A stretch of DNA of 38,235 nt from contig JAGOVS010000011.1 in NCBI GenBank assembly GCA_018060625.1, positions 1 through 38,235 on the forward strand. Reading direction: 5' to 3'. A program made the position numbers and the translations under genes. Position 1 is the first letter of the stretch. Every line of letters begins with the position of its first letter. The DNA comes from Bacteriovorax sp. GTDB lineage: Bacteria > Bdellovibrionota > Bacteriovoracia > Bacteriovoracales > Bacteriovoracaceae. The notes under the pieces are model-generated. The model saw only the letters and a list, made by a program, of their open reading frames with translations. It was not told where the DNA came from and made no database searches. Below are positions 25,717-29,207 of this stretch, in pieces.

Positions 25717-25945
25717 CTTCACTGAGCTTGTCTTGTTCAATTTCTGCTTCATTTTCTTTTGCATTTTGGCCATCTTTGATCTCTTGTTGATTCTTTTCCT
25801 TTTCAGGAACCTTGTAAGACTCTTGGAACCAATGTCCAAGATCTATTAGTTTACATCTTTCTGTACAAAAAGGTCTAAATTTTGATTCGTAATATGAAAA
25901 CTCTAATTGGCATTGAGGGCATTTTACGCGCAAATTTTTATTCAT
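25688..25945 (-). CDS. yacG: YacG/DUF329 zinc-binding protein with acidic tail
   Basis: The first 45 residues carry the YacG signature: CPQC (9-12), then RPFCTERCKLIDLGHWF with Cys27 and Cys31. In E. coli this small protein binds zinc and inhibits DNA gyrase. Here the product has 85 residues because of a highly acidic C-terminal tail (about 50-85, rich in Glu, Asp and Lys). The ATG overlaps the aminotransferase stop (ATGA), and its own 3' end overlaps the monophosphatase gene. Tight coupling suggests co-expression, not necessarily shared function. Confidence 0.9.
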   Translation of the reverse strand: MNKNLRVKCPQCQLEFSYYESKFRPFCTERCKLIDLGHWFQESYKVPEKEKNQQEIKDGQNAKENEAEIEQDKLSEDEYSEDDYK

Positions 25946-26715
25946 ACGAGTTCACCATATTTTCCAAAGTGCTCAAGAGTTTTTTCATAAAGTGAATTGA
26001 CTGAGTCGTAATTAACTTGTTCAAATCGGTTAACGAAACGAATTCCTCTCACTGAGCTAGTTAACCAAATTTCACGAGCTTTCAGAAGATCCTCTCGAAC
26101 AATAGTTGATTCAATTATCTTAACATTATTATTCTGAAGGTTATTCATTAATTTTTTTCTCATCACCCCATCTAAAACCATTGACGAAATCGAAGGTGTT
26201 TTCACTAAATAGTCCTCAGTAACAATAAAAACATTCGATGTACTTGCTTCAGTCAGCTGCCCCAAATGATCAAAATAGAGAAAATCATTAAAGCCCATCC
26301 CGAGGGCCCTCTGCATTTCTAAATCGGACTCAAGATAATGTGATACCTTAAGAAATGCTGGATAAAGTCCTGGGGTTTTCATTTTTAAAGCGACTGTTAA
26401 ATTAAGGATTTCGACTGCTAAATGAAGTTGTCGCCTCTCGATATGCAGACAATCATCAAATAACGTTATACGAAAATAAGAATCGGACGTATCTTTATTA
26501 AAAAGATCCAAAACATAATCTTTTAACTCTTGGTCACACTGCTCCCACTTCATTTCAGGAAAAAGAAAATGGGCCCCAAGGAGTAGGCGCTCCAAGTGAC
26601 TTTCCAAAAAAAGAATCTTTCCAGAAATTGAAATAAACGAAGTAAATACGACATGTCCTCTGTTGAGTGAAGCCAATTGGTAGTGTCGTGCCGTTTCTTT
26701 TGATAATATTTTCAT
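25942..26715 (-). CDS. class IV pyridoxal-phosphate aminotransferase family protein (PabC/IlvE/Dat-like)
   Basis: The 257-residue product has the fold-type IV pattern: an early N-R-G followed by ESHLERL near residue 38, a likely PLP lysine at 123 (FLKVSHYL) and Glu156 in LTEASTSNVFIV, which contacts the PLP ring nitrogen in this family. The length is closest to aminodeoxychorismate lyase (PabC), but branched-chain or D-amino-acid aminotransferase cannot be excluded. It is the first gene of the minus-strand set and diverges from the pantothenate operon across 77 bp. The ribosome binding site is weak (AAAGAGC). Confidence 0.82.
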   Translation of the reverse strand: MKILSKETARHYQLASLNRGHVVFTSFISISGKILFLESHLERLLLGAHFLFPEMKWEQCDQELKDYVLDLFNKDTSDSYFRITLFDDCLHIERRQLHLAVEILNLTVALKMKTPGLYPAFLKVSHYLESDLEMQRALGMGFNDFLYFDHLGQLTEASTSNVFIVTEDYLVKTPSISSMVLDGVMRKKLMNNLQNNNVKIIESTIVREDLLKAREIWLTSSVRGIRFVNRFEQVNYDSVNSLYEKTLEHFGKYGELV

Positions 26716-26792: not shown

Positions 26793-27716
26793 ATGCCAAC
26801 TCAACGTCCCATTGTCATTGTCGGATTTGGCTCTCAAGCATGCGCCTGGGCGCTTAATTTAAGAGACTCCAATGTTGACTTAAGAATAGCTCTGCGTCCG
26901 GGGAGTGAAACAAAAAAAAGAGCAGTTCAGCTGGGCTTTGAATGTATCAGCCTTGAAAGTGATGAGTTAATAAATTATTCGCTCTTTATTATGCTTATCC
27001 CTGATGATAAGCATTTGTCTTTTTTTGAAAAAAACAACATTTTCATTCAGAAAAATTCTCACTTCGTCTATGCCCATGGATTTAGTTTATCAAAAGAGCG
27101 ACTTCACGAAAAATATTCCCAATTCGGCCACTCACTTTTAGCCCCAAAGGCTATCGCTAGCGATGTGCGCTTTCAATACGAGACAAAAGGAAAGATCGGC
27201 GCTGCTTATTATGCAGAAACCGCGGACAATGAAAAAAACCTTAAAAGTTTGGCCATACAAGTTGGCTTTACTGCCCTTTATAAAAGTCACTTTGACGAAG
27301 AATGTTTGGCCGATCTTTTTTCCGAACAATCTCTACTTTGTTCACTCATACCATACGGCGCCTTAAAATCTTACAATCTTTTGCGTTCTAGTGGTGTTTC
27401 AAAAGAAGTGGCCTTTATGGAATGCTACTTAGAATTAAAATCTATTTCACACGCTTTTGTCACTTTGGGACCAGAAGCTTTTTTTAAGCTCATTTCCCCC
27501 AACGCCCTTATAGGTTCTCAAAAAGGAAGAAAACTTCTCCTAAATGAGACATTTGACAATGGACTAAAGCAAATTCTGATTGATATAAAAAATAAACAGT
27601 TTTATAAAGAAGTGGAAATTGATATTGATCAACTACGCAGTAATATTCTACATGAGTGGGGTCAAGAGGAATTGTCCCAAACATTTAAAACCTTAAAAGC
27701 AGAGCTAATAGTATGA
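26793..27716 (+). CDS. ketol-acid reductoisomerase-like protein, candidate ketopantoate reductase
   Basis: The 307-residue product aligns by eye to class I KARI (IlvC) from end to end. It has the nucleotide loop GFGSQACAWALNLRDS (G11-S14) and LRPGSE, the pattern that favours NADPH; AHGFS with His95; APK with Lys119; and metal ligands Asp174/Glu178 (LADLFSEQ) and Glu210/Glu214 (MECYLELKS). So the active site looks intact, though divergence is high. It overlaps panB by 4 bp (ATGA) and coaX follows. IlvC is known to reduce ketopantoate as a side activity in some bacteria, so a PanE role is inferred. An in-frame TTG at 26769 exists, but AAGGATAG directs the ATG at 26793. Confidence 0.82.
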   Translation: MPTQRPIVIVGFGSQACAWALNLRDSNVDLRIALRPGSETKKRAVQLGFECISLESDELINYSLFIMLIPDDKHLSFFEKNNIFIQKNSHFVYAHGFSLSKERLHEKYSQFGHSLLAPKAIASDVRFQYETKGKIGAAYYAETADNEKNLKSLAIQVGFTALYKSHFDEECLADLFSEQSLLCSLIPYGALKSYNLLRSSGVSKEVAFMECYLELKSISHAFVTLGPEAFFKLISPNALIGSQKGRKLLLNETFDNGLKQILIDIKNKQFYKEVEIDIDQLRSNILHEWGQEELSQTFKTLKAELIV

Positions 27717-28498
27717 CTTATTTAAACTCCAAAACTAGCGCAAAACTCAATACGCGCCAAATTCGCAGCTACAAAAAAAAGAGTTCAAAGCGCCCATTGC
27801 AAATGCTGACTTGTTACGATTTTCAAACGGCTGGACTTTTAAATGAGACAAATCTTGACCTCATTCTAGTTGGCGACAGTCTTGGGAATGTTATTCTTGG
27901 TTATGAAAATACTATTGAAGTTAATATTGAAACAATGGTCCTTTTCTCTAAAGCTGTTAAAAAAGGAGCCCCTCAAAAATTCGTCATCGCAGACCTTCCA
28001 TTTGGAAGCTATGCCTCTATGGAACTCGGATTAACAAACGCTATTAAACTTTTTCAACAAAGTGGAGTTGAGGCCCTAAAGCTTGAAGGGGCATTCCCTT
28101 TTGAATTAGAGCTTATAAAACGCCTCAGTCAAATAGGCATTCCTATTATGGGTCATATTGGTCTAACTCCTCAGTCAGTTCATGAGCAAGGTGGTTACTT
28201 TACTCATGGAAAAAATCTGCATGAGCAAGAAAAATTAACTGAAGAAGCAAAGGCCCTTGAAGCAGCGGGCTGTTTTTGTATTGTCCTTGAGTGCGTAGAA
28301 GAAAAACTGGCCCAAGAAATCACCCAAAACTTATCTATCCCTACAATCGGCATTGGATCAGGTACGGAGACAGATGGTCAAGTTTTAGTCATCAATGACC
28401 TTTTACATTTAGGAAAAAATACACCTCCCAAATTTTGTAAACCAATTGCTCATCTTTATGAAACCAAAAAGCAATTAATTGAAGAGTATTTGAAATAA
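27713..28498 (+). CDS. panB: 3-methyl-2-oxobutanoate hydroxymethyltransferase
   Basis: Forms ketopantoate from alpha-ketoisovalerate and methylenetetrahydrofolate, the first step to pantothenate. The 261-residue product has LTCYDFQTAG, the metal ligands in LVGDSLGN and IADLPFGSY, KLEGA, and the catalytic glutamate in VLECVEE, all in family order. It starts inside the stop of the reductoisomerase-like gene and is followed 1 bp later by coaX. panC and panD are not in this window. Confidence 0.96.
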   Translation: MTYLNSKTSAKLNTRQIRSYKKKSSKRPLQMLTCYDFQTAGLLNETNLDLILVGDSLGNVILGYENTIEVNIETMVLFSKAVKKGAPQKFVIADLPFGSYASMELGLTNAIKLFQQSGVEALKLEGAFPFELELIKRLSQIGIPIMGHIGLTPQSVHEQGGYFTHGKNLHEQEKLTEEAKALEAAGCFCIVLECVEEKLAQEITQNLSIPTIGIGSGTETDGQVLVINDLLHLGKNTPPKFCKPIAHLYETKKQLIEEYLK

Positions 28499-28499
28499 A

Positions 28500-29207
28500 A
28501 TGCGTCTCATAACTATTGATAACGGAAATTCAAATCCTCATGTCGGTCTCTTTGAAGATAAAGAGCTCATCAAGGTTATTCCCTTAAAAGATTACATCGA
28601 ACAAAAAGATGACTTCATCATTATGTCTGATGTCGGCCCCCCTCTTCAGATTAAACCAAGCTATTCGTTAAAAAAGCATCGCCATACAAATGAGTTACCC
28701 TCTTTTTTTGAAATGCCCGTTCATTATTCTGAAACGCTCGGAGACGATAGACTCATATGGGGGTATGCTCTCTTTCAAAAAATTCAGAATGATAATGATC
28801 GAATTTTAGCAATTGATGCAGGGACTTTTATGACGATGGACTTAATCACCTCCCAAGGTTTTATGGGAGGCTTTATTTTTCCAGGACTAAAAACTTTTTT
28901 AACAAGCTATGCAAAAGGTTCACTTCTTCCCGATTTATCCGAAAATAAAATTCAACCTTTCCAACTTCCTCAAACTACCAACCAAGCTATTTTAAGTGCT
29001 ACTGACCATTTTTTGGAATCAACCCTTGCAAGTATGATTTGTAAATTGAAGCCGAGCCAAATTTTTGTCACAGGAGGAAGCATGGAAATTGTCTACAACA
29101 AGCTTCTAGAACTTAATTTAGGAGTTCAACTTGAGAGAGATCCTCACTCAATACACTTAGCCTTGGCTTTGATATTTCAGTCTCAGCTTCAGAGAGAAGC
29201 TTTTTAA
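28500..29207 (+). CDS. coaX: type III pantothenate kinase
   Basis: Phosphorylates pantothenate, the first step of CoA synthesis. The 235-residue product has the ASKHA-fold motifs of CoaX: IDNGNSN at the start (phosphate 1 loop), ETLGDDRLIWG (a family E-x-L-G-x-D-R-x hallmark), AIDAGTFMTMDLI and GGFIFPGL. It is about 20 residues shorter than usual, mainly before residue 70. Third gene of the reductoisomerase-panB-coaX operon. The last 95 bp overlap the small minus-strand gene. Confidence 0.92.
   Translation: MRLITIDNGNSNPHVGLFEDKELIKVIPLKDYIEQKDDFIIMSDVGPPLQIKPSYSLKKHRHTNELPSFFEMPVHYSETLGDDRLIWGYALFQKIQNDNDRILAIDAGTFMTMDLITSQGFMGGFIFPGLKTFLTSYAKGSLLPDLSENKIQPFQLPQTTNQAILSATDHFLESTLASMICKLKPSQIFVTGGSMEIVYNKLLELNLGVQLERDPHSIHLALALIFQSQLQREAF

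Follow-up and report, generated by a model that had tools for sequence, protein, structure and literature searches.

The DNA analysed here (38,235 nucleotides, referred to as the window) makes up contig C87 in a Bacteriovorax-like assembly of 3.26 Mb, about 91% complete and distributed over 296 contigs. It carries a class I ketol-acid reductoisomerase (KARI)-like gene followed by panB and a coaX-like gene, with a class IV PLP gene in head-to-head orientation (Table 1). The KARI reading frame starts with an ATG and ends with the TGA at 27714-27716, the mechanical ORF start being a TTG 24 bases upstream of the ATG. A first-pass annotation, made from the sequence of the window, had assigned the span 26793-28498 to this gene; its start is indeed the KARI ATG, but its end is that of panB. 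The stop/start overlap and the adjacent coaX described there were both recovered, the coaX-like protein scoring below the NCBIfam baf cut-off in the profile search. A role as the valine aminotransferase is not supported for the divergent PLP gene: its best score is with PabC, and the genome encodes an unmistakable IlvE type II at another place; a PabC-like product would supply folate, whose methylene form is used by PanB.

Table 1. Features of the pan locus in the window.
Feature	Position	Strand	Evidence
Class I KARI-like protein of 307 aa, pan-linked, candidate dedicated ketopantoate reductase	26793..27716	+	Pfam KARI_N/KARI_C, kept catalytic residues, AlphaFold, Foldseek
ATGA stop/start overlap of KARI and panB, 4 bp	27713..27716	+	Sequence
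panB, ketopantoate hydroxymethyltransferase	27713..28498	+	NCBIfam panB, 268 bits against an equivalog cut-off of 207.6
coaX-like type III pantothenate kinase	28500..29207	+	Pfam Pan_kinase, 55.2 bits, over cut-off
Class IV PLP aminotransferase/lyase, PabC-like, divergent from KARI	25942..26715	-	PabC best score, below cut-off

Both KARI_N (76.7 bits) and KARI_C (66.8 bits) exceed their Pfam cut-offs and occur in order, and the protein was assigned to class I on this basis, taking a length of about 310-340 residues as typical. The AlphaFold model (pLDDT 95.9, pTM 0.90), whose best 50 Foldseek matches against the PDB are all KARI-family proteins, one of them a BurG entry, is consistent with the class I fold of the knotted C-terminal domain type. 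In the alignment, residues H95, K119, D174, E178, E210, E214 and S235 of the protein correspond to H108, K131, D191, E195, E227, E231 and S252 of class I enzymes, where D191, E195, E227 and E231 bind two Mg2+ (PMC5940873). The catalytic His and Lys and the four acidic metal ligands reported in the first-pass annotation are thus confirmed, and the Ser is kept too. Fold, length, domain order, NAD(P)H domain and all these residues are shared with IlvC (EC 1.1.1.86), from which the protein nevertheless differs in showing about 20-31% identity and in scoring below the cut-offs of the NCBIfam ilvC equivalog models (141.5 against 226.2 bits, and 135.4 against 336). By fold and family it is a KARI, and by score it is not an IlvC equivalog. 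Hence, the expectation that automated annotation would call it IlvC applies to Pfam-style annotation, whereas cut-off-based annotation need not mislabel it. It has no Pfam ApbA or ApbA_C match and does not belong to the PanE/ApbA family.

Among 102 family sequences (some species represented twice), H108, K131, E195, E227 and S252 are invariant, and D191 and E231 are kept in 100. The window protein departs from IlvC by H31W, P133I, T190A, G194S, T254N and E256L, the first two being W19 and I121 in its own numbering, and these changes, joined by M247F, occur together clade-wide beside catalytic positions. Most of the distant pan-linked families described below also have W31, I/V133 and S/T194, and unlinked KARIs of genomes lacking branched-chain amino acid (BCAA) synthesis show Q/E/H31 and A/P/S133. 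From these alignments we infer that the changed positions belong to the substrate pocket; Y133 of BurG, a residue in the same region, contacts the substrate tail (PMC9359912).

Genome-wide profile searches recovered one KARI, one panB, panC and an IlvE type II branched-chain aminotransferase over cut-off (L240:721-1809), and no ApbA_C (PanE), IlvD, IlvB or DUF2520 in the about 91% complete genome, so that the lack of a PanE-type reductase and of ilvB and ilvD, first described for the locus, holds for the whole assembly. A search for a second ilvC, which had been suggested as a check, returned none, the weak KARI_N match on contig C4 being judged from its sequence an S-adenosylhomocysteinase. 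Although the assembly is incomplete, the same absences recur in about 28 relatives. With panB and panC present and no PanE, DUF2520 or other KARI, the window KARI is the sole recognised candidate for ketopantoate reduction, and the panB branch of the pantothenate pathway would be complete up to pantothenate synthetase if it carries out this step. Moreover, having neither IlvB nor IlvD, the genome provides this KARI with no acetolactate supply and no downstream dehydratase. The predatory host appears to have lost valine, leucine and isoleucine synthesis, and the KARI its role therein; a broad loss of costly amino acid pathways has been published for the Bdellovibrionota (PMC11988736).

The linkage was followed in two overlapping samples. 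A kinship sample comprised 35 genomes of the family of the window organism, 29 of which contain the pan-type KARI, adjoining panB by coordinates in all except G031. A scan by name, seeded with KARI motifs only and sharing species with the former, gave 78 loci, mostly from Bacteriovoracaceae, Bacteriovorax and Halobacteriovorax; KARI lies directly 5' of panB in 74 of these Bacteriovoracaceae/Halobacteriovoraceae loci, with -4 as the commonest spacing, while coaX is found in 74 of 78 and the divergent class IV PLP gene, head-to-head with KARI, in 61 of 78. All tested genomes of the family lacking panB also lack the pan-linked KARI (Fisher p 0.003, first set). Concerning the branched-chain pathway, IlvD and an over-cut-off IlvB both occur in the kinship sample in G021 only; of the 29 genomes with a pan-type KARI in that first set, 28 lack IlvD, several of them being 99-100% complete, as do 11 additional pan-KARI genomes of the family. 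Some cases count against a dedicated reductase: G014, a 75% complete MAG, has a KARI-type panB and no recognised reductase, G003 harbors an ApbA/PanE-like gene alongside its KARI, and KARI has moved away from panB in L138, L141 and probably L149. It should also be noted that G019 contains a second panB of a different type (L041, G019:C90:2555-3322) besides the KARI-linked one. The clade members at L138:4001-4993 and L141:3986-4939 have as neighbours a gene resembling lysine 2,3-aminomutase and a zinc dehydrogenase that may be a 3,5-diaminohexanoate dehydrogenase.

The position immediately 5' of panB may also be occupied by a DUF2520 Rossmann protein, putatively of the PanG type of ketopantoate reductase. 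This is the case, with overlapping reading frames, in eight of the nine genomes of the family that have panB and lack KARI (G029, G034, G063, G065, G093, G096, G098 and G099), and by BLAST also in G097; DUF2520 is found in none of the 29 KARI-containing genomes (2x2 table, p 2e-7, kinship ignored). It belongs to a different family from KARI, and the two are mutually exclusive in the tested genomes. The DUF2520-panB pair is not confined to this family, being present also elsewhere in the phylum (G039, G040, G053), and the PanB tree separates the PanBs linked to KARI from those linked to DUF2520 (SH-aLRT 92). DUF2520 genes overlapping the panB start where no pan-type KARI is present, as at L076:4755-5495 (G034), L212, L213 and L216-L223, are candidate ketopantoate reductases in their own right; the L076 protein receives no name from NCBIfam.

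Genomes with canonical ilv genes provide a control. G021 carries an ilvB-ilvN-ilvC-ilvE-leu cluster with ilvD nearby (names other than ilvB, ilvC and ilvD assigned from sequence and order), its canonical ilvC scoring 489 bits, over the NCBIfam cut-off, and keeps the pan-linked KARI as well. Contamination was considered and is unlikely: the GC content is the same, the congener G145 has this cluster as well (81-92% identity at the protein level), and G146 shows a match to its ilvD end. G093, in turn, combines ilvD and a canonical-type KARI with DUF2520-panB. Therefore, the enzyme of the pan slot is not displaced where a canonical ilvC is present. The complete ilv-leu-cimA-like cluster (L245 in G021:C92; L247 in G145) is confined to one genus of a family otherwise lacking BCAA synthesis and may represent a regain or a relic.

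Beyond the family, distant KARIs of f8, f12, f24, f25, f26 and f29 show the order KARI-panB-coaX-coaBC, often with a panD-like gene beside it (coaX and coaBC partly identified from sequence), and IlvD was not found in their genomes. The same script recovered no KARI-panB pair in f27 (L270). In the KARI tree, a branch supported at 100/99 separates the pan-linked copies of eight families (the above six plus f1 and f2) from canonical IlvC and the unlinked KARIs of f3, f4, f5 and f9; the pan-linked set would be a clade only if the root falls on the side of the latter. Several members show unusual features. Two pan-linked KARIs of f2 (L014:1429-2550 and L016) bear an N-terminally fused MerR-type DNA-binding domain, possibly yielding a self-regulating enzyme, and that of f26 at L269:2091-2987 has Thr at the position of the catalytic His108. 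The unlinked KARIs of f4 (L010, L011, L249) have lost two of the four metal ligands (D191N with E231K/G) and may act as reductases no longer tied to isomerisation; the two f4 genomes checked (G037, G045) show no ApbA_C, IlvD or IlvB.

Taken together, the genomic context, the pattern of co-occurrence, the tree and the mutual exclusion with a second family of reductases lend strong support to the pan-linked KARI being a dedicated ketopantoate reductase, as the first-pass annotation had proposed for the window gene; this is very probable, and the enzyme would constitute a specialised KARI subfamily. In the proposed route, prey-derived valine would be transaminated by IlvE to 2-ketoisovalerate, onto which PanB puts a hydroxymethyl group to give ketopantoate (2-dehydropantoate); KARI would use NAD(P)H to reduce it to D-pantoate, its retained metal site probably holding Mg2+, PanC would couple pantoate to beta-alanine, and CoaX would then phosphorylate pantothenate. 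Substrate, cofactor and metal use are those we infer for the pan-linked enzyme. Ketopantoate equals the substrate of the reductase half with CH2OH replacing OH, and on chemical grounds only the second half-reaction of an ordinary KARI, the 2-keto reduction, would be needed, on a substrate one CH2 longer. Ordinary KARIs perform an Mg2+-dependent alkyl shift followed by 2-keto reduction, and their reductase half takes several 2-keto acids (PMC5940873). There is, moreover, precedent, which the earlier annotation rightly pointed out: Corynebacterium glutamicum has no ketopantoate reductase other than IlvC, which also serves Buchnera (PMC4306246), while in Bacillus subtilis it is one of three (PMC11487621). 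Ketopantoate reduction by a KARI is thus precedented, and what we propose concerns the substrate of the pan-linked subfamily.

An ordinary IlvC of BCAA synthesis, with its partner genes lost in gaps of the assembly, would explain the intact Pfam domains and catalytic residues, and the assembly is 91% complete; this is nonetheless extremely improbable, as IlvD is missing from the same 28 of 29 genomes and 11 more, ilv operons where present have their own canonical ilvC, and the pocket residues are unlike those of every canonical IlvC compared. The combination of a PanE elsewhere and an ilv pathway with no other ilvC, which the annotation had named as contrary to its proposal, was looked for and not found. 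Also very improbable, though less so, is a bifunctional enzyme retaining, besides ketopantoate reduction, a physiologically useful isomeroreduction of acetohydroxy acids or other 2-keto acids. With all four metal ligands present, isomerase activity may persist; KARIs are promiscuous (PMC4353338), and sub-branch members adjoin the lysine-aminomutase-like genes; against this, these genomes have no acetolactate source or IlvD, and the clade-fixed substitutions lie beside the catalytic Lys, the metal ligands and Ser252.

Alternatively, KARI could act on another metabolite, with an unrecognised dehydrogenase reducing ketopantoate. The KARI fold has been repurposed before, in the cyclopropanol synthase BurG (PMC9359912), likewise with an altered pocket although with a different substrate, NAD+ and gene context, and D-2-hydroxyacid dehydrogenases can show ketopantoate reductase activity according to literature cited in PMC4353338. 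The exchange with DUF2520 in the same slot, and the joint absence of KARI and panB, make this very improbable. Going further than a dedicated reductase, an ancient Bdellovibrionota subfamily can be envisaged that is a monofunctional ketopantoate reductase, has lost acetohydroxy-acid isomerisation, resides in the pan operon and has repeatedly been exchanged with the DUF2520 reductase in a translationally overlapped slot 5' of panB; we favour this fuller scenario only slightly.

One element of the initial proposal has to be withdrawn, namely that KARI is a non-homologous replacement of PanE. PanE/ApbA (EC 1.1.1.169), which catalyses the reaction proposed here, differs in lacking the KARI metal site, but KARI and PanE are families of a single superfamily, that of 6-phosphogluconate dehydrogenase (PMC4353338); in this lineage, moreover, the alternative enzyme in the slot is DUF2520, not PanE. 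Regarding the known systems, the IlvCs of C. glutamicum, Buchnera and B. subtilis likewise place a KARI at the PanE step, but these are ordinary double-role enzymes, whereas here a separate, operon-borne subfamily sits in a pan rather than an ilv operon, the other pathway being absent or served by a canonical ilvC. Ketopantoate reduction as a side job of IlvC is therefore known, and what is new is a specialised subfamily carried in the operon; the collection of papers searched contained nothing on KARI in pan operons or on Bacteriovorax pantothenate synthesis.

The proposed function would illustrate how a promiscuous side activity becomes a dedicated enzyme lineage, and would explain why organisms unable to make valine or isoleucine keep an apparently orphan ilvC. 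If such genes were labelled IlvC, predatory bacteria would wrongly seem to possess part of BCAA synthesis and to lack a step towards pantothenate, and metabolic models would be distorted. Two-metal KARIs no longer needing the isomerase step, together with their pocket signature, would offer a direct system for studying the loss of one step in a two-step enzyme.
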